Shown in pieces: positions 8,349-31,267 of a DNA stretch of 36,078 bases. The notes under the pieces are model-generated. The model ran no database searches. It saw only the letters and a program-made list of their open reading frames with translations, and had not been told where the DNA came from. Origin of the DNA: Cyanobium sp. CZS48M. Its GTDB lineage: Bacteria; Cyanobacteriota; Cyanobacteriia; PCC-6307; Cyanobiaceae. Position numbers and translations under genes: made by a program. Position 1 is the stretch's first letter. Each line of letters opens with the position of its first letter. The DNA lies in NCBI GenBank assembly GCA_030373145.1, contig JAUCZK010000025.1, forward strand, positions 1 through 36,078. The letters run 5' to 3'.

Positions 8349-8954
8349 TCAGCGCATCAGTAACCCGATTGGCCCCAGGGCTGCCACGCCGCCGCAGAGA
8401 GCCAGCAGCACGCACACGCCACGGGTCCAGGCCAAGGGCAGACGCCGCAGCGCCAGGAAGCTGCCGCCGCTCACCAGCACTGAGCCACTGAAGGCCCCCA
8501 GCCACCAGAGCAGGGCGGAGCCGTCGGCCGGAGCTTCCAGGCCGTGGAGCATGGCGTGAACAGCCACCGCTGCGGTCACCAGGGCGGCGCAGGCACCCAG
8601 CTGGGGGCTCTGCTGCGAGTGGAGGCATCGCAGCACCAGCACCGCCACGGCGCTGATCGCCAGGGCTGCGAGAAATTCTTGGGCCGGCAACGTGCCGCCC
8701 ATCGCCCCGAACATGCCGCCGCCAACGGCACCAGCCAGGGCCCAGAGCAGCAGTTGGGCGGAGATGCAGGAGGCAGCTGCCCCCACACCGATCAGCAGCA
8801 ACAGGTGATCGGTGCCGCTGATGGGGTGCAGGAAGCCCGCCGCGATGCCGCCGTGGGCGATGCCATGGGCCTGAGCGGGTTGATCGAGCAGCAGCGCCAG
8901 GGCTGCCGCACCGCCGAACAGGGCCAGGGTTCTGGCCGAGAAGGTCTGGGTCAT
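8349..8954 (-). CDS. hupE: HupE/UreJ-type permease, probable cobalt importer
   Basis: A 201-residue membrane protein of the HupE/UreJ family of nickel or cobalt permeases. A signal-like first helix ends in AQAHG, followed by HGIAHGGIAAGFLHPISGTDH with the conserved metal-site His and Asp residues, then about six hydrophobic helices. The start at 8954 (MTQTFSARTLALFGG) was chosen because the longer frame from 9077 runs through a cobalamin riboswitch. That leader implies control by vitamin B12 and therefore cobalt as the likely substrate, as is known for riboswitch-linked HupE genes. Substrate assignment is inference. Confidence 0.88.
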   Translation of the reverse strand: MTQTFSARTLALFGGAAALALLLDQPAQAHGIAHGGIAAGFLHPISGTDHLLLLIGVGAAASCISAQLLLWALAGAVGGGMFGAMGGTLPAQEFLAALAISAVAVLVLRCLHSQQSPQLGACAALVTAAVAVHAMLHGLEAPADGSALLWWLGAFSGSVLVSGGSFLALRRLPLAWTRGVCVLLALCGGVAALGPIGLLMR

Positions 8955-8995
8955 CGAGAGGTCCGGTCCGCGCCGGGGATGAAGGGGTTGTGCAC

Positions 8996-9124
8996 GGCGA
9001 GCGTTCTGACTGAGGGGGCCATGGCCCCCATCACAGCTGCGGGACAGCGCCGGATTCGGCTCAGGACGAACCTGCACCCCACCGGACTTTCCTCGTTGCC
9101 TCCAGGGAGTGACCCGCTGGAACC
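8996..9124 (-). promoter_or_regulatory. Cobalamin (B12) riboswitch
   Basis: On the minus strand the leader of the HupE gene shows the cobalamin riboswitch core in order: GGTTCC at the 5' side, GAGGAAAGTCCGGTG, a variable stem, GAATCCGGCGCTGTCCCGC with AGCTGTGATG (the B12 box region), a perfect variable hairpin GGGGCC/GGCCCC, and the closing AGTCAGAACGCTCGCC. The spacing fits the RF00174 architecture. About 41 nt of GC-rich sequence separate it from the HupE start and could form the expression platform. When B12 is bound such elements reduce expression. A covariance-model search would settle the exact limits. Confidence 0.88.
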
Positions 9125-9161
9125 GTTGCCTCCATTGTGTGGCGCCGTGACCGCGTGGGCA

Positions 9162-9713
9162 TTACTGGGGGTGGCGGACCAGCCAGCCCAGCATCAGCAG
9201 GGATGCAGCGGTGATCCAGCTGCCACCCACCCTCAGGCCGATGGCCAGCCAACGGCGATGCGGAAGGGCCAGGGCCAGGGAAAGCAGGGTGCTCAGCGCC
9301 GCAATGGCCACGGTCTCCCCCAGCAGGGCTACCAGAGCACCCGCATGGCCGGCCAGTGCCGAGCCCGCCACCAAGGCGAACAGCGAGGTCAGAACGGCAG
9401 CCAGAGTCAACAGCACCACAGGCCGCAGCCGCACCTCCAGGGCCACGAGCAACCCAAGCCCAGCCACCAAGGCGGTGCACAACAGCGCCAGCAGCAGTTC
9501 CGAAGGCAGGGTCAGACCGATCAGGCCCCCCAGCAGCCAGGCCAGTGGCAGCAGCAAGGGCAGGCGATCACCGCAGGGTCTGCCGGCCTGCACGCTCAGC
9601 AACACAAGAGCGATCACCAGCAGCAGATCCGTGGGCTCCAGGAACAGCCGGGCCATCCCATCCCCCCAGGGGCCCAGGCCGGTGGGCGCCAGATGGGCCA
9701 GCGGCAGAGTCAT
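9162..9713 (-). CDS. Polytopic membrane protein in the HupE operon
   Basis: A 183-residue hydrophobic protein with about five to six predicted helices (for example LLLVIALVLLSVQAG, LLPLAWLLGGLIGLTLP, LLALLCTALVAGLGLLVAL). The ATG at 9713 overlaps the TGA of the upstream HupE gene as ATGA, so the two are translationally coupled and probably form one transport unit. A longer frame from 9758 would overlap further and lacks similarity. The helix pattern is reminiscent of HupE-like permeases but the N-terminal HPxSGxDH motif is absent, so I do not assign a family. The riboswitch lies 3' of this gene and controls the next one. Confidence 0.75.
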   Translation of the reverse strand: MTLPLAHLAPTGLGPWGDGMARLFLEPTDLLLVIALVLLSVQAGRPCGDRLPLLLPLAWLLGGLIGLTLPSELLLALLCTALVAGLGLLVALEVRLRPVVLLTLAAVLTSLFALVAGSALAGHAGALVALLGETVAIAALSTLLSLALALPHRRWLAIGLRVGGSWITAASLLMLGWLVRHPQ

Positions 9714-10309
9714 GTCAGGGCCTGCTCCAGAAACCACAGCCCCACCAACGCCACGCAACCGCCGGCCCCCTGCACGAAGCGTCGTCCTCCAGGCCAGCGA
9801 CGCGTCTCGCCCAGCAGGATCCCAACCAGGTGCAGCAGGCCAGTCGCCAGTACAAAGGCCAGGCTGTAGAGGAGGGCGTTGCTGCCGTCGGGCAGTTCAG
9901 CGCCGTGGGCATGGCCGTGAAACACCGCAAAGGAGGCCACGATCAGCGCCGCCAGAGCGAGCGGTGGCCTGAGTTCGAACAGCACCATCAGGCCCATCAC
10001 CAGACCTGAGACGGCGATGCCGATCTCCACCCCAGGAATCGGAACGCCGAGGAGGGCGAGGAGACCACCGAAGGCCATCACCATCGGGAACGCCAACGGC
10101 AGCACCCACAGGGCCGGCGGGCCGAGCACCGCACCCCAGAGGCCCACGGCCACCATCGCCACCACGTGATCGAGGCCCGAGATGGGGTGAAGCAAGCCGG
10201 CAACGAAACCACCACCGGGGTGTGCATCGGCATGGGCCCAGGCAGACGTCGGCACCAGGGCCAGGGCGACACTGGCCAGCAAGGCCCATCGCCAGTGGAT
10301 TCGCTTCAT
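9710..10309 (-). CDS. hupE: HupE/UreJ-type nickel/cobalt permease
   Basis: A 199-residue family member with a cleavable-looking N-terminus (MKRIHWRWALLASVALALVP then AWAHADAH) and the signature HPGGGFVAGLLHPISGLDHV containing conserved His and Asp residues, followed by five to six helices and a second FHGHAHG histidine cluster. The start at 10309 fits the signal peptide better than the longer frame. It shares an operon with two DUF3721 genes upstream and a membrane protein downstream, divergent from a MerR regulator. Unlike the other HupE it has no riboswitch directly ahead, so nickel, or another MerR-sensed metal, is plausible. The metal is not proven. Confidence 0.88.
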   Translation of the reverse strand: MKRIHWRWALLASVALALVPTSAWAHADAHPGGGFVAGLLHPISGLDHVVAMVAVGLWGAVLGPPALWVLPLAFPMVMAFGGLLALLGVPIPGVEIGIAVSGLVMGLMVLFELRPPLALAALIVASFAVFHGHAHGAELPDGSNALLYSLAFVLATGLLHLVGILLGETRRWPGGRRFVQGAGGCVALVGLWFLEQALT

Positions 10310-10366
10310 CAGCCGCAGGCCGTTGCGTTGCATCCTGAATCTGCTGCCCGGCTCCAAGGAATGCCC

Positions 10367-11805: not shown

Positions 11806-12157
11806 GCTGGAGTGTCGAACACAGCCCTGAGGGGAATCAACCGGCACCGGCGAGTCTCCTCACTGGCCCGGCAGAGGGACTGTCCGACAGCCGCCGCTTC
11901 CGGCCAGGCCCGCTCGAGGCCTTCAAGCAAGGGTGCCTGGGGTGCTGCCTGAGCAGCTGTTCGCGCCCAGGCTCCCAAGGCCAGCTGCTCTGGGAGCTGA
12001 ACCTGAGTTTTTATTACCCTACGGTCATAGCGGCAAGCTGGTGCAGTTTTCCCTTCGCCCCTTTCCCTGCCTCCATCCCGGCCTGCTCTGCGACTCCCCC
12101 GCCTGCTCCGGCATCGCGTCCGTTCGCCTTCGCACGCTTCTGTCATTCCCACCACCG
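11806..12157 (+). other. Intergenic leader before cydA with DUF4236 remnant
   Basis: The first part (to about 11930) continues the DUF4236 frame in another register (WSVEHSPEGNQPAPASLLTG). The remainder is C-rich and non-coding. An AT-rich patch at 12008-12030 includes CCTACGGTCATA, which weakly resembles the 21-bp element described at 22776 (13 of 21 positions), and may mark the cydAB promoter. Confidence 0.4.
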
Positions 12158-13561
12158 ATGCTTGCCACCTTCGATGTCGTGACCCTGTCACGACTGCAGT
12201 TCGCCCTGACGGCGATTTTCCACATGCTCTGGCCCGTGCTCTCCACCGGCCTGGCCATCTTTCTGGTGGTGCTCGAAGCCATCTGGCTGCGCACCAGCAA
12301 TCCCCTCTACTACCGCCAGGCCCGTTTCTGGGCGAAGCTCTACGTGCTCAATTTCGGCATCGGTGTGGCCTCAGGGCTGCCGATGGAGTTCCAGTTCGGC
12401 ACCAACTGGGCACCGCTATCGGAGTTCGCTGGCGATTTCTTCGGCTCGGTGCTCGGTTTCGAGGGTGCGATGGCCTTCATGCTCGAGGCCGGCTTCCTCG
12501 GGATCATGTTGTTCGGCTGGCAGAAGGTGCCACCAGTGATCCACTTCCTCTCCACCGTGATGGTGGCCTTTGGCGCCAACCTCTCGGTGTTCTGGATCCT
12601 CAGCGCCAACTCCTGGCTGCAGACTCCCGCCGGCGGCACCTTCTCGGATGGTCACTTCCATGTACAGAACTATTTCGCGGCCATCAACAACCCCTTCATG
12701 GTCAAGAGTGTGGTCCACATGGCCCTGGCCACTGTTGAAACCTCGATGCTGGTGGTGGCGGCGATCAGCGCCTGGTCCTTGCTGCGCCACAAGGCGCCGG
12801 AGTTCTTCCTGTTCTCCTTCAAGCTGGCGTTGGTGATCCTGCTGGCGGTGGCGCCGCTGCAGATCCTGGCGGGCCACGAAAGCGCTGTGCAGGTGGCCGA
12901 GCACCAGCCCACCAAATTGGCAGCCATCGAGGCCCTCTGGGACGACCAGGCCGCCGGCACCTCCCCCGCCTGGACCGTGCTGGCCGCTCCCGATGAGGCT
13001 AGCGGCAGCAACCGCTGGAGCCTGCAGGTTCCGCGGGCCTTCAGCTGGATCCTGGAGACGCGGCCACGGCTCAGCCAGACCGTGCGTGGCCTCAACAGCT
13101 GGTCCGCTGATCAGAGGCCCCACATGGTTGGCCTGCTCTTCTATGCCTTCCGGGTGATGGTGGCAATCGGCCTGGCGGCGGCGGCCCTGATGGCGCTCAG
13201 CCTGCTGCTCTGGTGGCGCGGTGGCCTCAGCGCCGAGAGCTTTGCCCGCTGGCCCTGGTTCAGCTGGGCCTGGATCCTTTCAGCACCGGCCGGCTACCTG
13301 GCGATCGAATCGGGCTGGGTGGTGCGCTGCGTGGGCCGCCAGCCCTGGACGGTGTATGGCCAGCTGCGGACCGCCGATGCCGCCTCGGTGCTGCCGGTGG
13401 GAGAGGTGATCACCAGCCTGAGCATCTTCGCTGTTCTTTACACCGTCCTGCTGATCTTCGCGCTCTATTTCGGCTCGCGGATCATCGCCAAGGGGCCGAA
13501 TCTCAGCCTCGAGCCGCCTAACGGCGCTTCCGCCCATCCCGTCTCTACCCCGAGCACCTGA
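12158..13561 (+). CDS. cydA: Cytochrome bd-type quinol oxidase subunit I
   Basis: The 467-residue catalytic subunit of cytochrome bd/cyanide-insensitive oxidase, which reduces oxygen with quinol in the thylakoid or plasma membrane. The N-terminal LSRLQFALTAIFHMLWPVLS carries the conserved heme-ligand histidine (H22), followed by GxPMEFQFGTNW, EAGFLGIMLFGW and VHMALATVETS. At 467 residues it lacks the long Q-loop of E. coli CydA, as in the CIO group. The start at 12158 (MLATFDVVTLSRLQF) fits the family; the longer frame from 11933 does not. It is followed 2 nt later by cydB. Confidence 0.95.
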   Translation: MLATFDVVTLSRLQFALTAIFHMLWPVLSTGLAIFLVVLEAIWLRTSNPLYYRQARFWAKLYVLNFGIGVASGLPMEFQFGTNWAPLSEFAGDFFGSVLGFEGAMAFMLEAGFLGIMLFGWQKVPPVIHFLSTVMVAFGANLSVFWILSANSWLQTPAGGTFSDGHFHVQNYFAAINNPFMVKSVVHMALATVETSMLVVAAISAWSLLRHKAPEFFLFSFKLALVILLAVAPLQILAGHESAVQVAEHQPTKLAAIEALWDDQAAGTSPAWTVLAAPDEASGSNRWSLQVPRAFSWILETRPRLSQTVRGLNSWSADQRPHMVGLLFYAFRVMVAIGLAAAALMALSLLLWWRGGLSAESFARWPWFSWAWILSAPAGYLAIESGWVVRCVGRQPWTVYGQLRTADAASVLPVGEVITSLSIFAVLYTVLLIFALYFGSRIIAKGPNLSLEPPNGASAHPVSTPST

Positions 13562-13563
13562 GT

Positions 13564-14565
13564 ATGGAGTTCCTTGAGCTGTTCATGCCCACGGTCTGGT
13601 TCGTGATCCTGGCGCTGTTCCTCCTTCTCTACGTGATTCTCGATGGCTTCGATCTGGGGGTTGGCATCCTCTCGCTCAGCTCCCCGGGAGAAGAGCAGCG
13701 CACGATCCTGATGACCAGCCTCGGCAATGTGTGGGATGCCAACGAAACATGGCTGGTGCTGATGGGCGGCGCACTGTTCGGGGCTTTCCCGCTGGCCTAC
13801 GGCACCATCCTCAAGGCGCTCTACGGACCCATCTACCTGATGATCCTGGGGCTGATTCTGCGGGCGGTGGCCTTCGAGTTCCGCGAAAACGCCGTCAACA
13901 AACGCCCCTGGAACCTGATGTTCGGGATCGGCAGTGTGGTGGCCGCCGCCTCCCAAGGCATCTGCTTGGGCACGGTGCTTTCCGGCATCCCCACCGATGC
14001 TGCCGGCCACTTCACAGGCTCCGTCTGGATCTGGGTGAACCCCAGCAGCCTACTGGTGGCCCTCACGCTCATCCAGGGCTACGTGTTGATCGGCTCCACC
14101 TACCTGATCATCAAAACCAGCGGTGAGCTGCAGCGGCTGCATGTGCGCACCGCTCGCCTGGCGGCAGCCACCACCCTTGGCGGGGCCCTGCTGATCACGT
14201 TCACAGCGCCTTTCGCGTCGGACGTGCTACGGCAGCGCCTGTTCGATCCCGCGTTTCTGCCCTTCTTCGTGGTGTTGCCATTGTTGGGCATCGCCCTGAT
14301 CGTTCAGCTCTTCCGCAGCCTGGCGCTGCAGCAGGAAGTATGGCCGTTTGTGTACACCGTGCTGCTGTTCATCCTCAGCTTTGCGGGGCTGGGTGTGATG
14401 GTGTTTCCGGCGGTGATCCCGCCGTCAGTCACGATCTTTCAGGCCTCGTCGTCGGTGAGTTCGATGGTGTTCATGCTCACCTTCATCGGCGTACTGATTC
14501 CGATCATGCTCTTTTACAACATCTACAACTACATCGCCTTCCGCGGCAAGGTGTCCGTCGAATAG
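13564..14565 (+). CDS. cydB: Cytochrome bd-type quinol oxidase subunit II
   Basis: The 333-residue structural partner of CydA. Family landmarks are LLLYVILDGFDLGVGILS near the N-terminus, the conserved GNVWDANETWLVLMGGALFG at about 54-73, and LRAVAFEFR. Eight to nine helices are apparent, and the C-terminus reaches the usual position. It starts 2 nt after cydA, so the two form one operon. A bd oxidase helps respire or remove oxygen at low levels and is less sensitive to sulfide than heme-copper oxidases, which fits the sulfide genes in the same window. Confidence 0.95.
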   Translation: MEFLELFMPTVWFVILALFLLLYVILDGFDLGVGILSLSSPGEEQRTILMTSLGNVWDANETWLVLMGGALFGAFPLAYGTILKALYGPIYLMILGLILRAVAFEFRENAVNKRPWNLMFGIGSVVAAASQGICLGTVLSGIPTDAAGHFTGSVWIWVNPSSLLVALTLIQGYVLIGSTYLIIKTSGELQRLHVRTARLAAATTLGGALLITFTAPFASDVLRQRLFDPAFLPFFVVLPLLGIALIVQLFRSLALQQEVWPFVYTVLLFILSFAGLGVMVFPAVIPPSVTIFQASSSVSSMVFMLTFIGVLIPIMLFYNIYNYIAFRGKVSVE

Positions 14566-14940: not shown

Positions 14941-15930
14941 TTATACGACCAGGCTGCCGGAGGCACTGAGAGAGTCGCCCAGCGATCCAGAATGTTGGAT
15001 TGCATTCCACATGAGGGTGCTCAGGTAACGCTCTCCTCCACTCGGCTGAATAACAACAATGCGTTGGCCTTGATACTCCGGCCTCTGTCCTATCTGTACC
15101 CCGGCATAGACTGCCGCTCCAGTTGAAATACCACTCAGAATGCCTTCATCTTGAGCAAGTTGTCGTCCGACTTCATAGGCTTGAGCCTCGGTAACCGTAA
15201 TGATCTCATCGATCAAGTCAACCCTCAAGACATCAGGAATAAAGCCTGCCCCAATGCCCTGAAGATCATGCAGCCCTGCGGGTTGGCCACTGAGTACAGC
15301 ACTATGAGACGGTTCAACAGCTACGATCTTTAAATGAGGATTCTGCTGCTTGAGGTACTGGCCAGCTCCCGTTAGAGTGCCGCCAGTTCCGACACCGACG
15401 ACGAAAACTCCCAAAGAGCCATCCGTGTCCTCCCAGATTTCTGGCCCAGTGGTTTCGTAGTGAATTTTGGGGTTGGCAGGGTTGCTGAATTGATGTGGTG
15501 AAAAAGCATTTGTCAACGTACTCAGAAGATAATTAGCATGAGAGATTGCCCCTGCCATATCAGCTTCAGCAGCGGTTAAAATAACCTCAGCCCCATAGGC
15601 GCGCACAATCTGCTGCCGCTCTCTGCTCATATTTTCGGGCATTGTCAAAATTAAGCGATATCCTCTTGCCGCACAGACCATTGCTAGCCCAATTCCGGTA
15701 TTCCCAGATGTTGCTTCAACGATGGTGGAGATCCCTGGTTGAATCAACCCCGCTTTTTCCGCCTCAAGAATCATGCTTGCCGCGATTCGATCTTTTACCG
15801 ACTGGGCAGGATTAAGGCCCTCAAGCTTTAATACGATGTCTGCGGCACAGCCCCACCGCTGCGGCAGCCGTTGGAGCTGGACCAGAGGCGTGTGGCCAAT
15901 TACTTCAAGCACACTGGGATAGATCTTCAT
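14941..15930 (-). CDS. cysK: Cysteine synthase (O-acetylserine sulfhydrylase)
   Basis: A PLP enzyme that makes cysteine from O-acetylserine and sulfide. The 329 residues cover the whole family: VIGHTPLVQLQRL, the PLP lysine K46 in NPAQSVKDRIA (usual NPAGSVKDR), the substrate loop EATSGNTGIGLA, GVGTGGTLTGAG and the C-terminal PLP-phosphate/serine region GERYLST. Codon use is less GC-rich than in neighbours such as cydB. It begins 18 nt after the stop of the CNB-AAA-polyferredoxin gene, with AGGAA ahead of the ATG, so the two are one operon. It could act as a sulfide-assimilating isoform alongside the SQR cluster. Confidence 0.94.
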   Translation of the reverse strand: MKIYPSVLEVIGHTPLVQLQRLPQRWGCAADIVLKLEGLNPAQSVKDRIAASMILEAEKAGLIQPGISTIVEATSGNTGIGLAMVCAARGYRLILTMPENMSRERQQIVRAYGAEVILTAAEADMAGAISHANYLLSTLTNAFSPHQFSNPANPKIHYETTGPEIWEDTDGSLGVFVVGVGTGGTLTGAGQYLKQQNPHLKIVAVEPSHSAVLSGQPAGLHDLQGIGAGFIPDVLRVDLIDEIITVTEAQAYEVGRQLAQDEGILSGISTGAAVYAGVQIGQRPEYQGQRIVVIQPSGGERYLSTLMWNAIQHSGSLGDSLSASGSLVV

Positions 15931-15948: not shown

Positions 15949-18615
15949 TTAAACAAAGAGCCAAAAGCCACCAATCGTCAGTACAACCATTAATCCAAGA
16001 TGAGGCAAGTTGCTCAGCAGCGTCCGTTGGGTGATTCGGAGCAGCGGATAGATACTGAACACCAGTGCCGCTAGCAACGTTACGCCCTGCATGAAGGCTG
16101 CTACATCAGCGCTCCAGGTGAGAATGGGAAGGCCAACTCCGCTGAAACCCAGGGTGCGAGCCAGAACTGGCAGGATCTTCCCTGCTTCGGTCATCGCAGC
16201 GGGCACATAATGAGCCAGATTAAGAGCCAGTGTAAACGGAAGGTATGCATAGATGGCCGTGAGGTAGGGAGGTTGTCCCGGGTCAAGCTGTCGAGCTAGC
16301 GAATGGGTCAGATAGGTCGCCAGTGCCGGAAGACTCAGCAAAGCCAGAGCAATCGCAGCGCTGCTCCAAAAGTGGTGGGCATCGACTGGGACAGAGGGAT
16401 ATCCAATTACAGCCAGGATTCTTTGGCTGTGATGCATCAGTACGCCGCCCAAAAGCAGCAATAGCAGGGCCACTTCAGCCCAGAATCCCTGGTGGTTCTC
16501 TAGCAGATCTGAAGTGGGAAAACGAAGATTAAATTGCACCGAACGATGGGGACAGGCTTTCAAGCAGGTCATGCACAAAACACAGTCACGATTATCTTGA
16601 AGTTGTGCAGGGTGTGAATAAAGCGGACAACCCCCTGTCGCCTGTCCTTCACTTGAAAGAGCGTCTGCAAATTCTACTGTGGTGGCATCACTGCCCTTGA
16701 AGCACCCAAAGGTGCTGCATTGGCTGCCACACACCTGCTGAGATGAGCGCAACTCAAGCATACCGAGCTTGGCAAACATGCCATTCATGCCGCCGATGGG
16801 GCAAAGATAACGGCACCACAGACGTCGTTCATAGATCAGACTACAAATCACAGCACCCGCTGTGATTGCCAACAGCAGCCAGGCTGAGAGATAGGCACTA
16901 TTGGGTAAGTCCCAAAGCTTTTCCCATAGATAAATCACCACAAAACCGCAGAATAGTGCCCACGCCCCCCAGCGATTGAGCCATTGAGTTGGCCACGGCA
17001 GCTGCTGGCGAGGGAATAACCACAGCGAGGCACGCCGCAACCATTCCGCAGTAATCATGAAAGGACAGACGGCACACCATAGGCGGCCAATGAATATAAA
17101 AAGCAGCAAGTAACCAGGCCACCACCAGGCCCAGAAGAAATTCAATGTCACACTGCTATCTCGTGTTTGCGGTCCCAGGAATCCAGCCAAGGTTACCGGC
17201 AAAAATAGCGCCATCATCACAATCCACAGACCTTCGGGGTACCAGCGGCTCAGCAACAGACTTCGCAGCCAGGGAATCTGAGTCAACAGATCGACCCGGA
17301 AGGCATTTTTTGCCGACTGTACCGACCAAAGAGCCTGCTCTGGAATCAGAATCTGCTCGATAGGGGTCATGGTTACCGCACGGTTGATAATCGCCGCTAG
17401 CTCCGTGAGATTGCCGGGGTAGGCATAGCTGATAAGGCGGCGCAGATCTGACTGAGCGAGGGTCATCAGTGGACGATTCTGAGCATAGCAAAACTGGATG
17501 AGAAAGTGGTTGGCAAAGGCTGGAATATCGGGTCGTCGCTGCGAGAGGCTAAACAGTTTTATTTCCATACCATTAACCCCTGATAGCATCAACTTCTCTG
17601 GAGACGCGTAGATGATTCGCACCCACGACTGAACAATCTTGGGGATTTCGTTCGGCACAGCATTGAGCTGAATATGCCTGGTATTGCAATAGTTGGCTAC
17701 ACGAGTCTGATCTTCCTCGCTGAGAGCCTGAAAATTGCATAGCAGCAACGTTCCGCGTTCCATCAGTTCAATCAGCCCGGCTTTATGGCCATCACGGCCA
17801 AACAAAAGGTCAGTGTTGACAATGCCATTTGCTGATTGAGGTAGATGCGCACAGTCCAGCTCCGCAAATGGTTCGTCTACCAGGCCAGAGCGACTATGAA
17901 TCAGCCCGGCCACGAACGTTTTGCCGGAGCCTTTCGGCCCTTGAAGGCCGACAGGCTGGAGCGTCGCGGCAGCCTGATCAATTTTGTCGTTCAACTTCTG
18001 GCTAAATTTGCTGCTGCCCAGGATGGACTCACCAGCGGGGACTGCGCAGATGTAATCCCGCAACCCCTGAATACGTTGTTGCTCCCAGGCGATACGGGTG
18101 CTGAAGGTATTGAGGTCCTGGGCCAGCAAGGTGTTGAATAGGTGCTCCATCTCAGCGTACTGATGCAAGAGCTGTCGTAACTGATGCTGGGGCAAGAACC
18201 AGATCTCGCTGGCTGTGAGCGCGATTGCCTGGGTCTGGTGCTGGACGCTGCCTGTTTTGGCCAGGAGTGATACGTAGCCAAAAAGCTCACCTGCGCTGCG
18301 CTGGCGAATGAGTGATTGACCGATAGGTGAAAGTCGATAAATTCCAACGGCCCCCCACTTCAGCAGATACAGCCCTAGGGATGATTGACCTTCACTGTAG
18401 ATCAGCGTCCCTGCTTCAGCCTTTAGCAGGTACAGCGAGCGAGCCAACTCTTCCCGGACTAAGTCGGGTAGACGCCCCCACAGACGATGGAATTGCAGCC
18501 ATTTCGAACACTCTTCAATGAGATCCAGGTCCTGGACGGGTAATCCCACAAGGCCCATTCCCAAGGGGGGATGATCGAGGTCGGTGAGGTTTGGAGAGGA
18601 AGAGAGGTCAACCAT
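15949..18615 (-). CDS. CNB domain-AAA-membrane polyferredoxin fusion
   Basis: An 888-residue fusion. Residues about 36-170 form a Crp-like cyclic-nucleotide-binding domain (GTLIYSEGQSSLGLYLLKWG, RSAGELFGYVSLL). Residues about 198-430 resemble the AAA domain of sigma-54 activators: Walker A GPKGSGKT at 226-233, but Walker B is GTLLLCNF without the acidic pair and the GAFTGA loop is missing. From about 460 a NapH/NosR-like membrane polyferredoxin follows: LWCAVCPF (512-519), LWCRYLCPIGG (599-609), a CxxxCxxxxC cluster (629-638) and a 4Fe-4S motif C678-C681-C684-C688, then more helices. No HTH is present. It probably couples a cytosolic signal to membrane electron transfer, not to transcription. 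Composition is less GC-rich than its neighbours. Confidence 0.85.
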   Translation of the reverse strand: MVDLSSSPNLTDLDHPPLGMGLVGLPVQDLDLIEECSKWLQFHRLWGRLPDLVREELARSLYLLKAEAGTLIYSEGQSSLGLYLLKWGAVGIYRLSPIGQSLIRQRSAGELFGYVSLLAKTGSVQHQTQAIALTASEIWFLPQHQLRQLLHQYAEMEHLFNTLLAQDLNTFSTRIAWEQQRIQGLRDYICAVPAGESILGSSKFSQKLNDKIDQAAATLQPVGLQGPKGSGKTFVAGLIHSRSGLVDEPFAELDCAHLPQSANGIVNTDLLFGRDGHKAGLIELMERGTLLLCNFQALSEEDQTRVANYCNTRHIQLNAVPNEIPKIVQSWVRIIYASPEKLMLSGVNGMEIKLFSLSQRRPDIPAFANHFLIQFCYAQNRPLMTLAQSDLRRLISYAYPGNLTELAAIINRAVTMTPIEQILIPEQALWSVQSAKNAFRVDLLTQIPWLRSLLLSRWYPEGLWIVMMALFLPVTLAGFLGPQTRDSSVTLNFFWAWWWPGYLLLFIFIGRLWCAVCPFMITAEWLRRASLWLFPRQQLPWPTQWLNRWGAWALFCGFVVIYLWEKLWDLPNSAYLSAWLLLAITAGAVICSLIYERRLWCRYLCPIGGMNGMFAKLGMLELRSSQQVCGSQCSTFGCFKGSDATTVEFADALSSEGQATGGCPLYSHPAQLQDNRDCVLCMTCLKACPHRSVQFNLRFPTSDLLENHQGFWAEVALLLLLLGGVLMHHSQRILAVIGYPSVPVDAHHFWSSAAIALALLSLPALATYLTHSLARQLDPGQPPYLTAIYAYLPFTLALNLAHYVPAAMTEAGKILPVLARTLGFSGVGLPILTWSADVAAFMQGVTLLAALVFSIYPLLRITQRTLLSNLPHLGLMVVLTIGGFWLFV

Positions 18616-20958: not shown

Positions 20959-21489
20959 TTACATCGCCACCCGGTTCCAGGGCATGGCGGCCAGCAGACG
21001 CGCCATGCCGCAGAAGCCGCTGATACCGGCGAAGGTGAGCCCAGCGCCCACGAATCCACTCAGCCAGATCCAGCCCGGGGCTACCGTCTGGCTCAGGATC
21101 ACCCCCAGCAGCACCAGGCTGCCGGCCGCGATCTGCACCTGGCGCATCAGCGGCAACGGTGCCCCCTTGAGCTTGCGTACGGAAAAACCAGCCTGCTGCC
21201 AAGCGGGCACGCCACCCATCAGGTCGGCAACCGGGTGGGGATGGCCCTGCTGGAGAAGTTGGCTTAATGCCTTGGCGCTGCGGTTGCCGCTCTGGCAGAC
21301 CAGCACGAGCGGTCCGCTAGGGAGACCGGCCTGGGTGATGCGCGAGAGGGGAACGTTGAGGCTGCCGGTGATGTGGCCGGAGGCGAATTCCATCGGTTCG
21401 CGCACATCAATCACCGTGACGTCGCGGGCAGCCAACTGGTCGGCCAGATCGTGGGCACTGATACGGGTGTGGGTAGCGGTGGTGGTCAT
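20959..21489 (-). CDS. Rhodanese domain fused to DUF2892 membrane anchor
   Basis: Residues 8-105 form a single rhodanese domain with the active-site loop CQSGNRS (C65), which carries a persulfide in sulfur transfer. Residues about 112-170 are a two-helix DUF2892 segment (IAAGSLVLLGVILSQ, FVGAGLTFAGISGFCGMARLL) that fixes the domain to the membrane. This architecture is common next to sulfide-oxidation genes. It lies 38 nt downstream of the persulfide dioxygenase gene and 49 nt upstream of the OsmC-like gene. The rhodanese domain would face the cytosol if the N-terminus stays inside. Confidence 0.9.
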   Translation of the reverse strand: MTTTATHTRISAHDLADQLAARDVTVIDVREPMEFASGHITGSLNVPLSRITQAGLPSGPLVLVCQSGNRSAKALSQLLQQGHPHPVADLMGGVPAWQQAGFSVRKLKGAPLPLMRQVQIAAGSLVLLGVILSQTVAPGWIWLSGFVGAGLTFAGISGFCGMARLLAAMPWNRVAM

Positions 21490-21527: not shown

Positions 21528-22649
21528 TCAGGCCTGGACGGCACCGTCGAGCGGGTACCCCTCCGCCGCCCAGCGGTTCAGCCCGCCGCGGAGGTTGGCG
21601 ACCTGCTGGCGGCCGGCCTTGAGCAGCTGCTGGGTGGCCAGCGCCGAGCGGCTGCCTGAATGGCAGACCACCACCAGTGGGCAATCGACGGGGATCTCCG
21701 TGGAGCGGCTCTCGAGCTCCGGCAGCGGAATCAGCAGGCTGCCGGCCACCCGGCCGTCCGGTCCGTTGAATTCCTCGGAGGAGCGCACGTCGAGCACGGT
21801 GACATCGTTTTGATGGGCAGCCACCCAAGCCGGCGTGAGTTCGGGCAGGCCGGCATAGCTGCGAGCCAGGGGCGCCCAGACAGGAGCGATGGACGATTCG
21901 CGGGGCTTGCCGGAGCGCATGTTGCCGGGAAGGGCCTCGGCAATCTTGTGGGGATGGGGGAGTTTCATGTTCTCCATATGCCCCACGAAATCCCGCTCGG
22001 TGGCGTTGCCGCCCAGCCTGGCGTTGAAGGCCTTCTCTTCGGCCACGGACGTGACGGCGCGGCCGGTGTAATCGTGGCCTGGGTAGAGCAGGCAGCTGTC
22101 GGGCAGGGAGAGGATCTGCTCGGTGATCGAGTTCCACAGGGTGTGGGCATTGCCCTGCTGGAAGTCGCAGCGGCCGCAGCCCCGCACCAGCAGAGCATCG
22201 CCGCTGAAGGCCATCGACTGGTCGTCGAGCACGAAGGTGAGGCACCCCTCGGTGTGGCCTGGGGTGGCGCGCACCTCCACGGAGCGGCCCCCGAAGGCCA
22301 CCCGATCCCCATGGGCCAGGGGCTGGGTGACGTTCTCGGCGCGGGCGGCGACGGCCAGGCCGATGGCACAGCCGGTGGCCTCGTGCATCAGCCAGCTGCC
22401 CGTCACGTGGTCGGCATGGGCGTGGGTGTCGATCGAGGCCACCAAATCAATGCCCAGCTCGCGGATCAGGGACAGGTCGCGGCCGTGCTGCTCGAAGACC
22501 GTGTCGATGATCACCCCCTTGCGGGTGGGCACATCGGCCAGCAGGTAGGTGAAGGTGCCGGTGTCGGCATCGAACAACTGCCGGAACAGCAGGGGGGCGC
22601 CACCGGCGGCGGCGGCCAGGGAGAGGGCAGGTGCGGGAGCGACGGCCAT
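21528..22649 (-). CDS. Persulfide dioxygenase (ETHE1-like)-rhodanese fusion
   Basis: A 373-residue bifunctional enzyme. The N-terminal metallo-beta-lactamase domain has the ETHE1 iron site: THAHADH (H76, H78, D80, H81), PGHTEG (H132), FSGDALL (D151) and PGHDY (H192), plus RGCGRCDFQQGNA typical of persulfide dioxygenases, which oxidise glutathione persulfide to sulfite. Residues about 270-370 form a rhodanese domain with C329 in CHSGSRS that can move sulfur between persulfide, sulfite and thiosulfate. The ATG at 22649 is used; the longer frame runs into the divergent arsR region. It is the first gene of the operon continuing with rhodanese-DUF2892 and OsmC. Confidence 0.93.
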   Translation of the reverse strand: MAVAPAPALSLAAAAGGAPLLFRQLFDADTGTFTYLLADVPTRKGVIIDTVFEQHGRDLSLIRELGIDLVASIDTHAHADHVTGSWLMHEATGCAIGLAVAARAENVTQPLAHGDRVAFGGRSVEVRATPGHTEGCLTFVLDDQSMAFSGDALLVRGCGRCDFQQGNAHTLWNSITEQILSLPDSCLLYPGHDYTGRAVTSVAEEKAFNARLGGNATERDFVGHMENMKLPHPHKIAEALPGNMRSGKPRESSIAPVWAPLARSYAGLPELTPAWVAAHQNDVTVLDVRSSEEFNGPDGRVAGSLLIPLPELESRSTEIPVDCPLVVVCHSGSRSALATQQLLKAGRQQVANLRGGLNRWAAEGYPLDGAVQA

Positions 22650-22775
22650 GGATGATCGATCACCAACTGCTATGAGCTTAACCGCATAAAGCGCTGCAAG
22701 GCAATTTCCACCCAGGCCGGCCGTGGCTCGTCGCAGGGGTGGAGCCGGCGGGGGCCATCGATGCCTGCTTACGTG

Positions 22776-22796
22776 CATAATGTCTCTAGCGTCATA
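22776..22796. promoter_or_regulatory. Candidate ArsR operator, copy 1
   Basis: A 21-bp element beginning CATAATGTCTCT and ending GCGTCATA in the divergent region between the persulfide dioxygenase operon and arsR. It recurs, inverted, at 29244-29264 with 18 of 21 identities, in front of psbA and a DUF3122-like gene. Its position 11 bp before the arsR start fits an autoregulatory operator. The CATAAT hexamer could also serve as a -10 box for arsR. Confidence 0.6.
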
Positions 22797-22806
22797 CAGC
22801 ATTGCC

Positions 22807-23154
22807 ATGGCCGCGCCCGCCGTCGGGTCCCTGCCGAGCCCACAGCTCCTCGATGAACTCAGCGCCTTCTTCCGTCTCCTGAGCGAGCCGGCCCGCCTGC
22901 AATTGCTCTGTCAGCTCAAGCACGGCGGTGCCATGGATGTGGCCTCCCTGATCGAAGCCACGGGCTTCAGCCAGTCCCACATCAGTCGCCAGCTCGGCCA
23001 GCTGCAGCGGGCGGGTCTGGTGAGCTGTGAGCGGGAGGGGACGCGGCTGATCTACGCCGTGGCCGATCCCCTGGTGGATGACCTCTGCAACCTGGTGCAG
23101 CGGCGCCTCAAACAACGGTTGGAGCAGCAACTCAGCCAACTGCAGGCGGTGTGA
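22807..23154 (+). CDS. ArsR-family regulator, probable persulfide sensor
   Basis: A 115-residue winged-helix repressor. Residues 14-36 (LLDELSAFFRLLSEPARLQLLCQL) and the recognition region VASLIEATGFSQSHISRQLGQLQRAGLVSCEREGTRLIYAV are typical ArsR. It has C35 in helix 2, C74 in the wing and C94 in the C-terminal helix. BigR/SqrR persulfide sensors use one Cys in helix 2 and one in the last helix, and C35 and C94 are candidates, though the spacing is not identical. The ATG at 22807 fits the family. It is divergent from persulfide dioxygenase and convergent, with directly adjoining stops, with sqr. Confidence 0.88.
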   Translation: MAAPAVGSLPSPQLLDELSAFFRLLSEPARLQLLCQLKHGGAMDVASLIEATGFSQSHISRQLGQLQRAGLVSCEREGTRLIYAVADPLVDDLCNLVQRRLKQRLEQQLSQLQAV

Positions 23155-24450
23155 TCACGGCTGCTTGAACGCCAGCCCCAGCGCGCGCACCAGCGGCGCG
23201 AACGGCTTGATGAAGCGGCTTTCATGCAGCCTGCCCTTCAGCACCCGGTGCCAGTAGACCCAGGGGAACACCCGTGTTTCCACCAGAAACATGCTCCAGC
23301 GCTCCTTGGTGGGATCCACCAGGAAGGAGCTGACCGGCTGAAGGTTGTAGTCGAACTCCGCCATCACCACGCTGTGGAAGCTGGTGATCAGTGGACAGGC
23401 GGTGTAGCCGTCGTAGTGGGACAGCAGCGGTTGTCCATCCAACTTCGCCAGCAGGTTGGCCACCAGCACCGGCGCCTGGCCACGGATCGCGGCCAGGCTT
23501 TTGGAGGTGGGCAGAGAACTCACATCCCCGAGGGCGAACACATCGGCGAAACGCTTGTGCTGGCAGGTGAGCTTGTTCACCTCCACCCAGCCGCCCTGAC
23601 CCTCAATCGCCAGGGGGCTGCGGGCCACCACGTCCGGCGCCGCCATCGGTGGCACCACATGCAGGAGGTCGAAGGGAATCTCCTCAAGGGAGGGTTCACG
23701 GCCTTCCGCCCTGACCTCAAACACCGCCACCTGCTCCTCGGGGCGCACCTCGATCAGGTTGTGGAGCAGCCGAGTTTCGATGCCCCGGCGCGCCGCGACG
23801 CGCTCGACCGTGGCGTTGTAGGCCTTGACCGGATACAACTGCGTGAGGGCCGTGCAGAAGATCACCCGGGTGTTCACGCCCACGCCGCTGGTGGCCTGGA
23901 AGATGTCGTCGGCCAGGTACATCACCTTCTGGGGCGCGCCGCCGCATTTGATCGGGGTGGCGGGGTGGGTGAACAGGGCGGTTCCCCCCTGAAAGCCGCG
24001 GATCGCGCTCCAGGTGGCGGCGATGTGGGCGCGGGAATAGTTGCTGACGATGCCGTGGCTGCCGAGCGCCTCCGGCAGGCCCTTGATCTGGCTCCAGTTG
24101 AGCTGGAGCCCCATGGCCACCACCAGCACGTCGTAGCTGAGGATGTCCCCGCTGGCGGTGATCACCCGTTGGGCCTCCGGCTCGAAGCTGGCGGCGCTGT
24201 CCTGGATCCAGACGGCGCCCGCGGGGATCACGGCGGCCTCCATTTGGTGGGTCTGCTCGTAGGGGAGCAGACCGGCGCCGGCCAGGATCCAGCCGGACTG
24301 GTACTCGTGAACGCCGGAGGGCTCCAGGATCGCCACATCGAGGCCTGGGCGTGCCCGCAGGAGCTGACTAGCCACAATGATGCCGCCAGTACCACCACCG
24401 ACGATCAGGACATGATGGTGGCGGTGGCCCACGGAGCCGTATTCGGCCAT
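23155..24450 (-). CDS. sqr: Sulfide:quinone oxidoreductase (type II-like)
   Basis: A 431-residue FAD flavoprotein that oxidises sulfide to persulfide/polysulfide and passes electrons to quinone in the membrane. The FAD site VLIVGGGTGGIIVAS is at 14-28. The catalytic cysteines correspond to C169 (TPIKCGGAPQK) and C352 (GYTACPLITSFHS), and the second FAD motif is FADVFALGDVSSLPTSKSLAA (301-321). Two catalytic cysteines and the C-terminal membrane-binding region (FPWVYWHRVLKGRL) fit the type II, SQOR-like group. AGAGGTGA precedes the ATG. Its persulfide product would be the substrate of the dioxygenase-rhodanese operon nearby. Confidence 0.93.
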   Translation of the reverse strand: MAEYGSVGHRHHHVLIVGGGTGGIIVASQLLRARPGLDVAILEPSGVHEYQSGWILAGAGLLPYEQTHQMEAAVIPAGAVWIQDSAASFEPEAQRVITASGDILSYDVLVVAMGLQLNWSQIKGLPEALGSHGIVSNYSRAHIAATWSAIRGFQGGTALFTHPATPIKCGGAPQKVMYLADDIFQATSGVGVNTRVIFCTALTQLYPVKAYNATVERVAARRGIETRLLHNLIEVRPEEQVAVFEVRAEGREPSLEEIPFDLLHVVPPMAAPDVVARSPLAIEGQGGWVEVNKLTCQHKRFADVFALGDVSSLPTSKSLAAIRGQAPVLVANLLAKLDGQPLLSHYDGYTACPLITSFHSVVMAEFDYNLQPVSSFLVDPTKERWSMFLVETRVFPWVYWHRVLKGRLHESRFIKPFAPLVRALGLAFKQP

Positions 24451-24574
24451 CGATCACCTCTGAGCCTCCCTCTGTCTAGCCAGGCCCTGGTGAAACGGTG
24501 ACAGCCCATACATAAATACATGCTTGCAGACGCATAGGAGGATAGAATCTGCTGGTGTGATCAAGGTGCGGCCG

Positions 24575-25501
24575 ATGGCGCCATGGCAACAGCCTTCAGC
24601 CCAGGGCGACCCAGCGCCTCCAGTACGGCTCCAGAAGCATGGCGGCATCTTCTCGTCGGTGAATCCAGCCGACTGGATGAGACATTGGCGCTATCCCAAT
24701 CACCTGATGCTGGCCGTGCCATGGCCGGTCTTCTTTGCGTTGATCGCAGTGGGATACCTGCTTCTCCACCTGGTGTTCACCGGCCTTTACTGGCTGGATC
24801 CCCATGGGATCTCGGGCGTGGCAGGCCCTGCAACCAGTTTCATGGAAGCGTTCTTCTTCAGTGTGCATACCTTGGGGTCGATCGGCTATGGAGCGCTCTA
24901 TCCCAGCAGTCTCTTGACGAATCTGATTGTCACCCTCGAATCATTGTTGGGGTTGATTTTAATTGCCCTGATCACAGGATCAACCTTCAGCCGCTTCTCC
25001 AGGTCCACAGCTCGGATCCTGTTCTCTGATATGGCCACGGTACAATCCTACAACGGACTGCCCACCTTGATGTTTCGCGTGGCCAATGAACGGCGAAAGA
25101 CCATTCTCGATGCCAGGATTCGGGCCTATCTCGCCATCGATGAGCGCACTTCGGAAGGTCACCGGATGCGACGTCTGCACCCGATGTCGTTGAACCGCGA
25201 CTGCTCGCCCCTGTTTCTGCTCACCTGGACAGTGATGCATTCGATCGATCAGCACAGCCCCTTGCATGGACGTACCCCCCAGGAGCTGAACGCAAGCCAA
25301 GCCGACATCGTGGTTTCGTTCAGTGGCATTGACGAAACCCTGGATCGGCCGATCCATGCCCATCACAACTACCCGGTTTCCCAGGTGTTGTTCGATCAGC
25401 GCTTCGTGGACATGATGCAGGAGGAGGATGGCGAGGACCAAAGCTTTGACTTCGCCAATTTCAACCGTACTCAGCGCTGCATCCCTTCCAAACTGGCGTG
25501 A
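24575..25501 (+). CDS. Inward-rectifier-type potassium channel (KirBac-like)
   Basis: A 308-residue channel protein with two transmembrane helices (about 49-72 and 114-136), a pore helix and the selectivity filter TLGSIGYG at 99-106, followed by a cytosolic beta-rich IRK domain (MATVQSYNGLPTLMFRVANE onward) and an acidic tail. This is the KirBac layout at normal length. Frames begin as far upstream as TTG 24524. AGGAGG at 24536-24541 is 15 nt from GTG 24557, while AAGGTG stands 6 nt before ATG 24575, which I prefer. It is divergent from sqr. A link to sulfide physiology is not evident beyond position. Confidence 0.88.
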   Translation: MAPWQQPSAQGDPAPPVRLQKHGGIFSSVNPADWMRHWRYPNHLMLAVPWPVFFALIAVGYLLLHLVFTGLYWLDPHGISGVAGPATSFMEAFFFSVHTLGSIGYGALYPSSLLTNLIVTLESLLGLILIALITGSTFSRFSRSTARILFSDMATVQSYNGLPTLMFRVANERRKTILDARIRAYLAIDERTSEGHRMRRLHPMSLNRDCSPLFLLTWTVMHSIDQHSPLHGRTPQELNASQADIVVSFSGIDETLDRPIHAHHNYPVSQVLFDQRFVDMMQEEDGEDQSFDFANFNRTQRCIPSKLA

Positions 25502-25619: not shown

Positions 25620-26126
25620 ATGAGGCTCCCCTTCCGCATCTCTGCTTTTTTGCGGAGATCACTATTTCTGGTCCTGCCATCGCTGTTGGTCCTTCTGCTG
25701 GGAGCCTTTCCAGTCCAGGCGGCGGACAGTTGGTCGCTCAAGGATGGTGCGGGCCATCGACTCAATGCAATGGTCTTCGAGCAACCATTTCCGGAGTATC
25801 CCTCAGGCTTGCGAATCCGCCTGAATGCTCTTGATGCAAAGACAAAACTTGATCACCACCAGCAACTCTTATTGAGCGACTCGATGGGCCAGGAATGGAG
25901 CTTGCCCAATCTCAGCGAGGAAATTGTCAAGAAGGGCGGCACTCCCATCCCGCCTCGATCGGCCCAGTTCGATCTCGATGCCTTGATGCCACGACCCAGT
26001 GAAGCGCTTCCACTCCACTTCACAGTGGCATCAACCGAGGGTGCGCTGGACTTTGATCTGACCCCTGAGCAGACAATGGAGCTCCACGCCATGGGATCGG
26101 TGCAACAGCGCAGCGATCAGGCCTGA
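25620..26126 (+). CDS. Secreted DUF3122-like protein, paralogue 1
   Basis: A 168-residue protein with a signal peptide (basic start, LVLPSLLVLLLGAFPVQAA) and one domain that matches the paralogue at 29262: WSLKDGAGH, MVFEQPFPEYPSG, RIRLNALD, DHHQQLLLSDSMGQEWSLPN then SEEIV, SAQFDLDALMPRPSEALPLH. The pattern SLxDxxGHxW...LxLFxQ...LPNxSEE fits the cyanobacterial DUF3122 family, whose function is unknown. It presumably acts in the lumen or periplasm. Its stop overlaps the end of the exported rhodanese by 10 nt in convergent orientation. Confidence 0.72.
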   Translation: MRLPFRISAFLRRSLFLVLPSLLVLLLGAFPVQAADSWSLKDGAGHRLNAMVFEQPFPEYPSGLRIRLNALDAKTKLDHHQQLLLSDSMGQEWSLPNLSEEIVKKGGTPIPPRSAQFDLDALMPRPSEALPLHFTVASTEGALDFDLTPEQTMELHAMGSVQQRSDQA

Positions 26127-27393: not shown

Positions 27394-27397
27394 CGGA

Positions 27398-31152: not shown

Positions 31153-31267
31153 CCTCGGCTTTCTTTGTTGGACGTTGAGCAGGGAATCTCTATGTCATCT
31201 GTTTGCATACTTGACTTGTGATTGGCTTCTATGGCTAGCGTGTAGATGAAGTATTCTCCTTAGACAT

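Follow-up and report, generated by a model that had tools for sequence, protein, structure and literature searches.

What could a protein built around the AAA domain of a sigma-54 activator do in a cyanobacterium? The question is raised by a gene in a 36,078-nucleotide contig of Cyanobium sp. CZS48M (JAUCZK010000025.1), referred to here as the window. The gene occupies positions 15949 to 18615 on the minus strand, where it is read from 18615 to 15949, starts with ATG, and encodes 888 residues; frame 1 of the plus strand is full of stops over the same interval. An initial reading of the sequence alone described the product as a fusion of a cyclic-nucleotide-type sensor (CNB), an AAA domain, and a NapH/NosR-like iron-sulfur membrane module, and this description was borne out by the Pfam scan, by sequence matches, and, for the CNB and AAA parts, by the predicted fold. 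Together with NCBIfam, these analyses placed the CNB at residues 65-153, the sigma-54-activator-type AAA domain at residues 196-433, and the NapH/NosR-like module with its C-terminal helical extension at residues 441-888. The Pfam matches were to cNMP_binding (PF00027; residues 65-153, 55 bits vs a cut-off of 27.5), Sigma54_activ_2 (199-312, 52.5 vs 25), Sigma54_activat (198-342, 44 vs 20.2), AAA_lid_14 (359-422, 45.5 vs 27), and Fer4_5 (best stretch 578-617, 28.9 vs 22). The same reading named an assembly error as a possible refutation, and such an artefact was ruled out by the presence of full-length homologues across many genomes. Sites resembling promoters and terminators were about as frequent around the gene as in shuffled sequence (5 vs a mean of 2.9, SD 1.6, and 3 vs 3.5, respectively), and no tRNA was found in the window. 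Literature searches, with subscription papers mostly outside their reach, recognised no published paper on this fusion, and the words 'sigma' and 'cyclic nucleotide' are absent from the texts of PMC5061849 and PMC8002359.

Family spread and clades

Related loci, taken as the best 80 of 549 relatives, were found to form three clades: A, the window type; B, which is widespread; and C, which occurs in picocyanobacteria and lacks the CNB. A single branch separated each clade from the others (SH-aLRT 100, 95, and 100, respectively) in a tree that took every third clade-B locus (17 of 51) and omitted loci that were broken, short, or partial (L043, L050, L053, L055, L056, L139, and L148). The neighbour set was compiled without L143, L145, and L147, which duplicate L048, L054, and L058, and its rows remain partly non-independent, with L048/L144 and L044/L045 being near-copies and G201 and G300 belonging to one genus. 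The genome of the window carries both a clade-A and a clade-C copy, while clade B was detected in 76 of 386 genomes; these clade lists were sorted by hand from the two best candidates scored per genome, such that presences are lower bounds. The fusion family is common in cyanobacteria and not the curiosity of one genome.

The CNB part is predicted to resemble the fold of PKA RII-beta (1cx4; Z 18.9, rmsd 2.1, 146 aligned residues) and had dN/dS values of 0.134 and 0.036 in two pairs. No conserved Arg was found in the aligned phosphate-binding cassette of the clade-A rows and nine clade-B rows; we take this Arg to be the signature of cAMP/cGMP binders. As the CNB is absent from the clade-C rows, from two clade-A rows (L057 and L058), and from two clade-B rows (L013 and L016), the family core does not depend on it.

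The AAA head and sigma-54

The claimed kinship of the AAA part with sigma-54 activators was upheld by the sequence families and by the predicted fold, which resembles NtrC1 (1ny5_A; Z 24.0, rmsd 2.3, 229 aligned residues). Both lines of evidence show the AAA core and lid to be common to the fusion and to the bEBPs NtrC1, ZraR, DmpR/CapR, and NifA. The fusion differs from these proteins in that (i) it lacks the GAFTGA loop, the catalytic Walker B Glu, and the HTH; (ii) it resides in a host in which no sigma-54 was found; and (iii) a membrane iron-sulfur module has been added. The GAFTGA loop was present in 0 of 70 aligned homologues, its region being shortened, and no HTH family was reported in the fusion by Pfam at E ≤ 1, the membrane module standing C-terminally instead. 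The Walker B Asp-Glu pair is Cys-Asn in the window protein, and Glu occupied the second position in 0 of 25 clade-A rows. The sequence-only claim that all three features are missing thus holds for the window protein, although the first Walker B position is Asp in 12 and Glu in 2 of the 25 clade-A rows.

The further description of this domain as dead proved too strong. The window protein has a complete Walker A (GPKGSGKT, fitting GxxGxGK[ST]), and 24 of 25 clade-A rows retain its GKT; the corresponding clade-B sequence ends in KD in 45 of 45 rows. Purifying selection also acts on the AAA part (two pairs gave dN/dS values of 0.21 and 0.17). Judged from this motif and this constraint, the clade-A AAA domain may still bind nucleotide.

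Sigma-54 itself was expected to be missing from cyanobacteria, and the searches agree: no sigma-54 gene was found in the window's own genome, and none that was convincing was found among 194 Cyanobacteriia genomes, which yielded four partial matches covering 33-41 of 160 positions (one of them, a 94-residue frame matching 38 positions, scored just over the cut-off). Some public records nonetheless name relatives of the fusion as sigma-54-dependent transcription activators. Four plasmid records gave matches; a partial match among them carries the name 'sigma 54-interacting transcriptional regulator', and a full match is called 'nitrogen assimilation regulatory protein', in keeping with the membership of the AAA part in the sigma-54-activator family. 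Against the loss of GAFTGA from every aligned row, the missing HTH, and the short partial sigma-54 matches, we consider the chance that these names describe the function to be close to nil. Given that GAFTGA, the Walker B Glu, and an HTH are all missing and that the searches yielded no convincing sigma-54, the fusion protein is very unlikely to activate sigma-54, and this function was rejected.

The membrane iron-sulfur module

The part of the gene encoding residues 441-888 (15952 to 17295, minus strand) is predicted to specify about nine membrane helices and carries the cysteine motifs C514-X2-C517-P, C601-X3-C605-P, C629-X3-C633-X4-C638, C663-P, and C678-X2-C681-X2-C684-X3-C688-P. The 12 module cysteines are invariant, and the full pattern was found in 70 of 70 homologues, including a first CP motif of the form CX2CP in all 70 rows and a second of the form CX3CP. 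By sequence, two putative 4Fe-4S cysteine sets are seen, both invariant, one being classical (CX2CX2CX3CP) and the other altered (CX3CX4C...CP). Selection constrains this half of the protein strongly (two pairs gave dN/dS values of 0.067 and 0.068). Constraint of this strength fits a sensor and an electron carrier alike.

The NapH/MauN quinol dehydrogenase ferredoxin subunit (TIGR02163) has membrane helices and CP motifs followed by 4Fe-4S cysteine sets, as does the fusion; over residues 505-696 the NCBIfam model scored 34.2 bits, far short of the 213.05 it requires, and the fusion differs in its CX2CP first motif, its altered 4Fe-4S set, its extra C-terminal helices, and its large N-terminal head. 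A membrane module with two CP motifs is also common to NosR, NirI, and PceC (RdhC), with NosR likewise carrying 4Fe-4S sets (PMC5928378). In contrast to the covalent FMN domain of NosR and PceC, no FMN-binding family was reported in the fusion by Pfam at E ≤ 1. A stand-alone 4Fe-4S protein of 452 residues on plasmid pDFI1 of Deinococcus ficus is 31% identical to fusion residues 444-704 and has Fer4_5, but unlike the fusion has no reported AAA or CNB domain. Compared with solved structures, the membrane half gave 0 matches at E ≤ 0.001 in one search and a best Z of 5.7 in another, its cluster loop was modelled at pLDDT < 50, and a PDB profile search returned weak ferredoxin-like matches only (best E 0.022).

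AAA domains often handle client proteins, and NosR-like proteins, like CcoG, are regarded as maturation or assembly factors. The fusion could by analogy be such a factor, in which a client is bound by the AAA head and electrons for the handling of a membrane-enzyme cofactor come from the iron-sulfur half; NosR is believed to contribute to NosZ activation (PMC5928378). We regard this role as distinctly unlikely, since without a Walker B Glu the head has no obvious motor and no single client gene is always nearby.

Pairing with cysK

A cysteine synthase A gene, cysK (14941 to 15930, minus strand), lies 18 bp downstream of the fusion on the same strand; its TIGR01139 score of 423.7 bits exceeds the cut-off of 350.95. 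The two genes are probably co-transcribed in clade A. The sequence-only reading proposed a pairing with cysK, to be checked by asking whether the genes are always adjacent. The pairing recurs in clade A, where cysK was found downstream of the fusion in 20 of 35 testable loci, but it is not universal, being missing from the other 15 (a broken cysK at L055 was counted as absent) and from all 51 clade-B loci; four of the 39 clade-A loci (L034, L046, L050, and L053) were untestable for the downstream gene. Within clade A, cysK pairing occurs on several separate branches, with six as the fewest changes of state.

A neighbouring cysteine synthase would also suit a redox sensor, as opposed to a metabolic electron carrier, in which the clusters read the quinone pool or cellular thiols and the CNB-AAA head signals to a partner such as a regulator or the adjoining enzyme. 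The regulatory type of the head, the intact clade-A Walker A, and the frequency of cysK next door speak for this account, as does the history of related proteins that were once proposed as transcriptional regulators through NosR/NirI homology (PMC5928378). The fusion has no DNA-binding domain, however, and no partner was identified, and we view a sensor role as possible but doubtful.

A sulfide and low-oxygen setting

Genes associated with sulfide and low oxygen surround the pair, a context that the initial reading did not notice. On the plus strand are cydAB, for subunits I and II of a cytochrome bd quinol oxidase (11933 to 14565, by Pfam). On the minus strand are genes for a rhodanese with a YgaP-like transmembrane domain (20959 to 21489), a persulfide dioxygenase-rhodanese fusion (21528 to 22808; closest solved relative BpPRF, 5ve3, E 5.1 × 10−120), a sulfide:quinone oxidoreductase (SQR; 23155 to 24450; closest solved relative mitochondrial SQOR, 6oi5, E 3.9 × 10−101), a rhodanese-domain protein (26117 to 26752), a Tll0287-like (DUF3365) protein (26749 to 27408), a DUF4079 membrane protein (27398 to 27868), and a low-oxygen-type D1 (psbA; 28048 to 29127). 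This D1 has A80, L158, and A286, which we take to be the marker residues of its type, and keeps D170, E189, H332, E333, H337, D342, and A344 as in normal D1.

When other loci were examined, at least one of SQR, persulfide dioxygenase, rhodanese, cyd, psbA, Tll0287, or PetC was found nearby in 22 of 41 clade-A loci but in none of the 51 clade-B or 7 clade-C loci, a contrast between A and B that is tilted because the markers were chosen among genes of the window and recurrent neighbours of clade A. The remaining 19 clade-A loci had no marker gene in the stretch, some stretches being short; the flanking markers vary between loci, and cydA was found in 5 of 41 other clade-A loci. Clustered on their own, clade-B neighbours gave no comparable set, the largest cluster occurring in 17 of 51 loci scattered over many offsets and the others each in a few loci, and the neighbours of the seven clade-C loci included no recurrent set of note. 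As clades B and C share the core without sulfide or low-oxygen neighbours, the core function of the family cannot be sulfide-specific. The sulfur link drawn earlier from cysK survives in a broader form: cysK recurs, yet the link lies not in cysK alone but in a wider sulfide/low-oxygen gene set.

Similar gene kinds occur elsewhere. In Pseudanabaena galeata and Aulosira laxa, annotated plasmids hold the fusion and cysK together with PetC and psbA, and that of P. galeata also carries a rhodanese, DUF3365, and an SQR. The neighbours in several clade-A loci match in kind the psbA1-DUF2892-petC-rhodanese group of Acaryochloris (AM1_0448-0451) and a similar Synechocystis group (slr1181-slr1185; slr1181, slr1184, and slr1185), both described as induced under microoxic conditions in the part of PMC5295598 available. 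That part differs from our loci in mentioning no fusion protein or cysK with these groups, and 'cyclic nucleotide', 'sigma-54', 'cysK', and 'cysteine synthase' are absent from the text of PMC5295598.

Across genomes, an SQR of either type was detected in 10 of 11 clade-A genomes compared with 30 of 73 genomes that have clade B only (Fisher P = 0.0025) and 56 of the 375 genomes lacking clade A (P = 1 × 10−7); at most four candidates per genome were scored, and these presences are thus lower bounds. Taken singly, each SQR type gave a weak contrast (first type, 6 of 11 clade-A vs 20 of 73 clade-B-only genomes, P = 0.087; second type, 6 of 11 vs 15 of 73, P = 0.025). The best relatives of both query proteins were solved SQRs. 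In the window's own genome the first type was not found, the SQR at 23155 to 24450 being of the other type.

Such neighbourhoods could also arise if the protein had a general cyanobacterial function and clade A merely hitch-hiked on mobile sulfide/low-oxygen islands. Clade B is widespread without such neighbours, some clade-A copies are on plasmids, and the fusion and cysK form a low-GC patch in the window (52-54%). This explanation is nevertheless unlikely in our view, as it sits poorly with cysK pairing on separate clade-A branches, with flanking markers that differ by locus, and with an SQR co-occurrence that is genome-wide.

A proposed membrane redox device

Overall, the fusion probably acts as a redox device in sulfide-exposed photosynthesis, not as a gene activator. 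In its specific form, to which we assign an even chance, it would be a membrane redox device with a non-hydrolysing head, clade A serving conditions of sulfide and low oxygen in which the quinone pool is over-reduced. The C-terminal half would link the plastoquinone pool, by electron exchange, to iron-sulfur clusters presumed to lie on the cytoplasmic side. The CNB-AAA half would be a regulatory or docking head that probably binds but does not hydrolyse nucleotide and has no action on sigma-54. Clade A, as a specialised paralogue often beside cysK, may work with SQR, persulfide dioxygenase, rhodaneses, cytochrome bd, and alternative D1 proteins, and may come into use when sulfide and low oxygen over-reduce the quinone pool. 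As electron transfer from plastoquinol to low-potential clusters would be uphill, this reading does not fix the direction of flow. A bolder version, which we put forward only tentatively and rate as rather improbable, would make clade A a dedicated switch for sulfide-driven photosynthesis, in which a pseudo-ATPase head derived from an activator responds to nucleotide or another ligand and gates the quinone-linked iron-sulfur module, the gene travelling with cysK in islands that bring SQR and photosystem II variants.

These findings concern a common cyanobacterial family in which at least one matched record bears the name of a sigma-54 regulator, although no convincing sigma-54 was found in the organisms concerned. 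Clade A is a marker of gene sets for using sulfide and for photosynthesis at low oxygen, and because it is one gene that could be deleted, it offers a way into the question of how cyanobacteria handle electrons once sulfide takes the place of water. Should the head indeed control the flow of electrons, the ATPase of a transcription activator would have been re-used to control bioenergetics.

Domain architecture and motif conservation of the fusion protein

The fusion is encoded on the minus strand of the window (18615 to 15949) as a single protein of 888 residues. Pfam analysis located a CNB domain at residues 65-153, the core and lid of a sigma-54-activator AAA domain at residues 198-422, and Fer4_5, a 4Fe-4S domain of membrane type, while residues 505-696 aligned to the NapH family of NCBIfam at a score well under the cut-off. 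The relationship of the AAA part to sigma-54 activators, proposed in the sequence-only reading, was borne out by Pfam, by sequence matches to ZraR, CapR, FlrC, and NtrC1, and by the predicted fold. In an AlphaFold model of the whole fusion (70 rows, mean pLDDT 81, pTM 0.57), the AAA superposed on NtrC1 (1ny5_A; Z 24.0, rmsd 2.3, 229 aligned), and PKA RII-beta (1cx4; Z 18.9, rmsd 2.1, 146 aligned) was the match for the CNB. The membrane half modelled alone (448 residues, pLDDT 78) could not be usefully matched to any solved fold, and its cluster loop was poorly modelled. Helix prediction suggested that the membrane half crosses the membrane about nine times, placing the cluster loop and both CP motifs on the same side as the N-terminal head, loop charge count being weakly informative for this topology.

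Motifs were surveyed in 70 homologues, comprising 25 of clade A (the window type, window included) and 45 of the widespread clade B. As anticipated from the sequence, the GAFTGA loop was found in none of the 70. The lack of an acidic Walker B, noted in the same reading, held for the window (Cys-Asn); in clade A the second position was Glu in 0/25, and the first was Asp in 12/25 and Glu in 2/25; the clade-B pair was Asn-Asn in 44/45. Walker A was intact in the window and GKT retained in 24/25 clade-A rows, and the clade-B site read GEPGLxKD or a near variant in 45/45. The conserved cassette Arg, which we take to be the signature of cAMP-binding CNB domains, was absent from the CNB in the aligned rows inspected. 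The membrane half has a cysteine pattern (C514-X2-C517-P, C601-X3-C605-P, C629-X3-C633-X4-C638, C663-P, and C678-X2-C681-X2-C684-X3-C688-P) that was complete in 70/70 rows. For two close pairs, dN/dS was 0.067 and 0.068 in the membrane half, 0.134 and 0.036 in the CNB, and 0.21 and 0.17 in the AAA; judged by these ratios, the AAA is the faster-evolving part, yet one that selection maintains.

Distribution of the family

Protein searches at E ≤ 0.001 gave matches in 30/60 relatives and 160/386 phylum genomes, weak hits to other proteins included. Hand-sorting of the 386 genomes assigned copies to clade A in 11 (window-type, identity ≥ 54%), clade B in 76, and clade C in 22, for 105 genomes in total, these counts being lower bounds with two candidates scored per genome. 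Each clade fell on one branch side of a 57-row tree (SH-aLRT 100, 95, and 100 for A, B, and C), which was unrooted and carried a long-branch warning. Clade C, found in the window's own family, is without the CNB, as are L057 and L058 of clade A and L013 and L016 of clade B; thus, the AAA and membrane module are the common core of the family. Separately, a membrane-module relative from Deinococcus that stands alone (L160:4962-6320) has a 4 bp overlap with a 308-aa gene lacking a Pfam match.

The window's genome carries a clade-C copy (L149; G000:C11:42129-44171) besides its clade-A copy and was the only one of nine genus genomes searched to hold clade A. The closest relatives of the window copy were from Synechococcus SynAce01, Phormidesmis, and Leptolyngbya, and the GC of the fusion and cysK patch was 52-54% when most of the window is 60-69%. 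Together, these observations suggest that the fusion-cysK pair arrived horizontally. Elsewhere in the window, GC also falls to 57% near 25-27 kb and to 52% at 31-33 kb; the latter patch (31001-33000) holds unknown ORFs and an ARMT1-like gene, and such genes also neighbor the fusion in L038 and are found on the Pseudanabaena galeata plasmid pPg_03. The clade-A copies L005/L139, L055, and L056 were split at differing positions into two frames that overlap or adjoin, by either sequencing error or decay.

Sulfide and low-oxygen gene neighborhood

The fusion lies in a sulfide/low-oxygen neighborhood that the sequence-only reading overlooked. On the minus strand are genes for an SQR (sulfide:quinone oxidoreductase; 23155-24450; mitochondrial SQOR 6oi5, E 3.9e-101) and a persulfide dioxygenase (PDO)-rhodanese (21528-22808; BpPRF 5ve3, E 5.1e-120), with two additional rhodanese genes and cydAB also near the fusion. 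The psbA, DUF4079, Tll0287-like, and rhodanese genes run in one direction. The encoded D1 has A80, L158, and A286, presumably marks of low-oxygen D1, with metal-ligand positions unaltered. Other features were an inward-rectifier-type potassium channel gene adjoining the SQR gene (24524-25501, plus strand), with similar channel genes in 2/29 clade-A and 1/51 clade-B loci; three successive HupE/UreJ-like membrane genes (8349-10357, minus strand; 182.7, 47.9, and 22.2 bits, the last just under the cut-off of 23); and a fragmentary second Tll0287-like copy elsewhere in the genome (G000:C22:28854-29172), one piece with an internal stop.

The gene downstream of the fusion, on the same strand after an 18 bp gap, encodes cysteine synthase A. 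The proposed pairing with cysK was recurrent but not constant: of 39 clade-A loci, 35 were testable (4 not); in 20, cysK followed the fusion on the same strand at a distance of no more than 2 kb (gap ≤ 50 bp or overlap in 11), and in 15 it did not. At L032, cysK was about 7 kb upstream. The downstream state required at least 6 changes on the tree, and cysK was found in 15 of a subset of 29 clade-A loci versus 0/51 of clade B. The genome has two more cysK-like genes (48% and 39% identity) plus three weaker matches.

One or more of SQR, PDO, rhodanese, cyd, psbA, Tll0287, and the Rieske protein PetC was present in 22/41 clade-A loci (29, 10 further, and two plasmids; window left out), 0/51 of clade B, and 0/7 of clade C, a contrast between A and B that is tilted because the markers were drawn from the window itself and from recurrent neighbors of clade-A genes. 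Mean total flank was similar (14.8 kb for 29 clade-A and 15.5 kb for 51 clade-B loci), and free clustering of clade-B neighbors revealed no comparable marker set. The psbA genes near clade-A L138 and L159 encode the same D1 kind as the window, and that of L141 is similar with Ile at 158. Near L037, L038, L040, and L158, the D1 metal ligands are lost ('rogue' or 'sentinel' D1) at positions 170, 189, 333, and 342, and at 332 in three of the four. The altered psbA of L158 is on a plasmid that also carries an SQR. On plasmid pPg_03, about 16 kb holds DsrE, the fusion, cysK, an IS4 transposase, rhodanese, DUF3365, DUF4079, DUF2892, PetC, psbA, a NifB/NifX-like protein, SQR (annotated FAD-dependent oxidoreductase; 3hyv, E 3.6e-103), and ArsR. 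In Aulosira laxa, petC, the fusion, cysteine synthase, and psbA are found on a plasmid typed as conjugative. Upstream of one clade-A fusion (L144:12462-19627, minus strand) are same-strand HdrC-, HdrB-, HdrA-, HdrC-, and HdrB-like genes and an SQR of mitochondrial SQOR type (E 1.5e-119), an Hdr-like set that we take to resemble the sulfur-oxidizing sHdr order, with all NCBIfam Hdr scores below cut-off; the HdrB-like genes and SQR are common to the close relative L048.

In published work, microoxia raises the Acaryochloris psbA1-DUF2892-petC-rhodanese genes, of which Synechocystis has a similar group (PMC5295598); polysulfide raises pdo, rhod, tauE, and cysK2 in Synechococcus 7002 (PMC12466478); and in the model sulfide user Geitlerinema there are D1 forms that serve a microaerobic and a non-oxygen-evolving state (PMC5061849).

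Genome-wide SQR co-occurrence and proposed function

SQR of either of two types was detected in 10/11 clade-A versus 30/73 clade-B-only genomes (p 0.0025; p 0.010 after removing the window's own genome and one of two congeneric genomes) and in 56/375 genomes without clade A. For the single types, the proportions were 6/11 versus 20/73 (p 0.087) and 6/11 versus 15/73 (p 0.025). Solved SQRs were the best relatives of both query proteins (mitochondrial SQOR; 3hyv, E 7.8e-107), 3hyv being presumably of the Aquifex/Acidithiobacillus type.

Beyond gene content, we infer every step of the following working. In the clade-A setting, sulfide electrons would enter plastoquinone via SQR while special D1 forms reduce water oxidation, and the quinol would be dealt with by cytochrome bd and alternative Rieske proteins. 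The fusion may swap electrons between the plastoquinone pool and cytoplasmic acceptors, its head responsive to a nucleotide or other ligand; the strongest rival holds that the fusion is a pure sensor. In the electron-exchange reading, cysK, which is probably co-transcribed with the fusion, would take away sulfide as cysteine. Most safely stated, an ancestral cyanobacterium probably held a fusion of a sigma-54-activator-type AAA and a NapH/NosR-like module, whose core would have spread phylum-wide in the form of clades B and C, while clade A may have become bound to sulfide and low oxygen.
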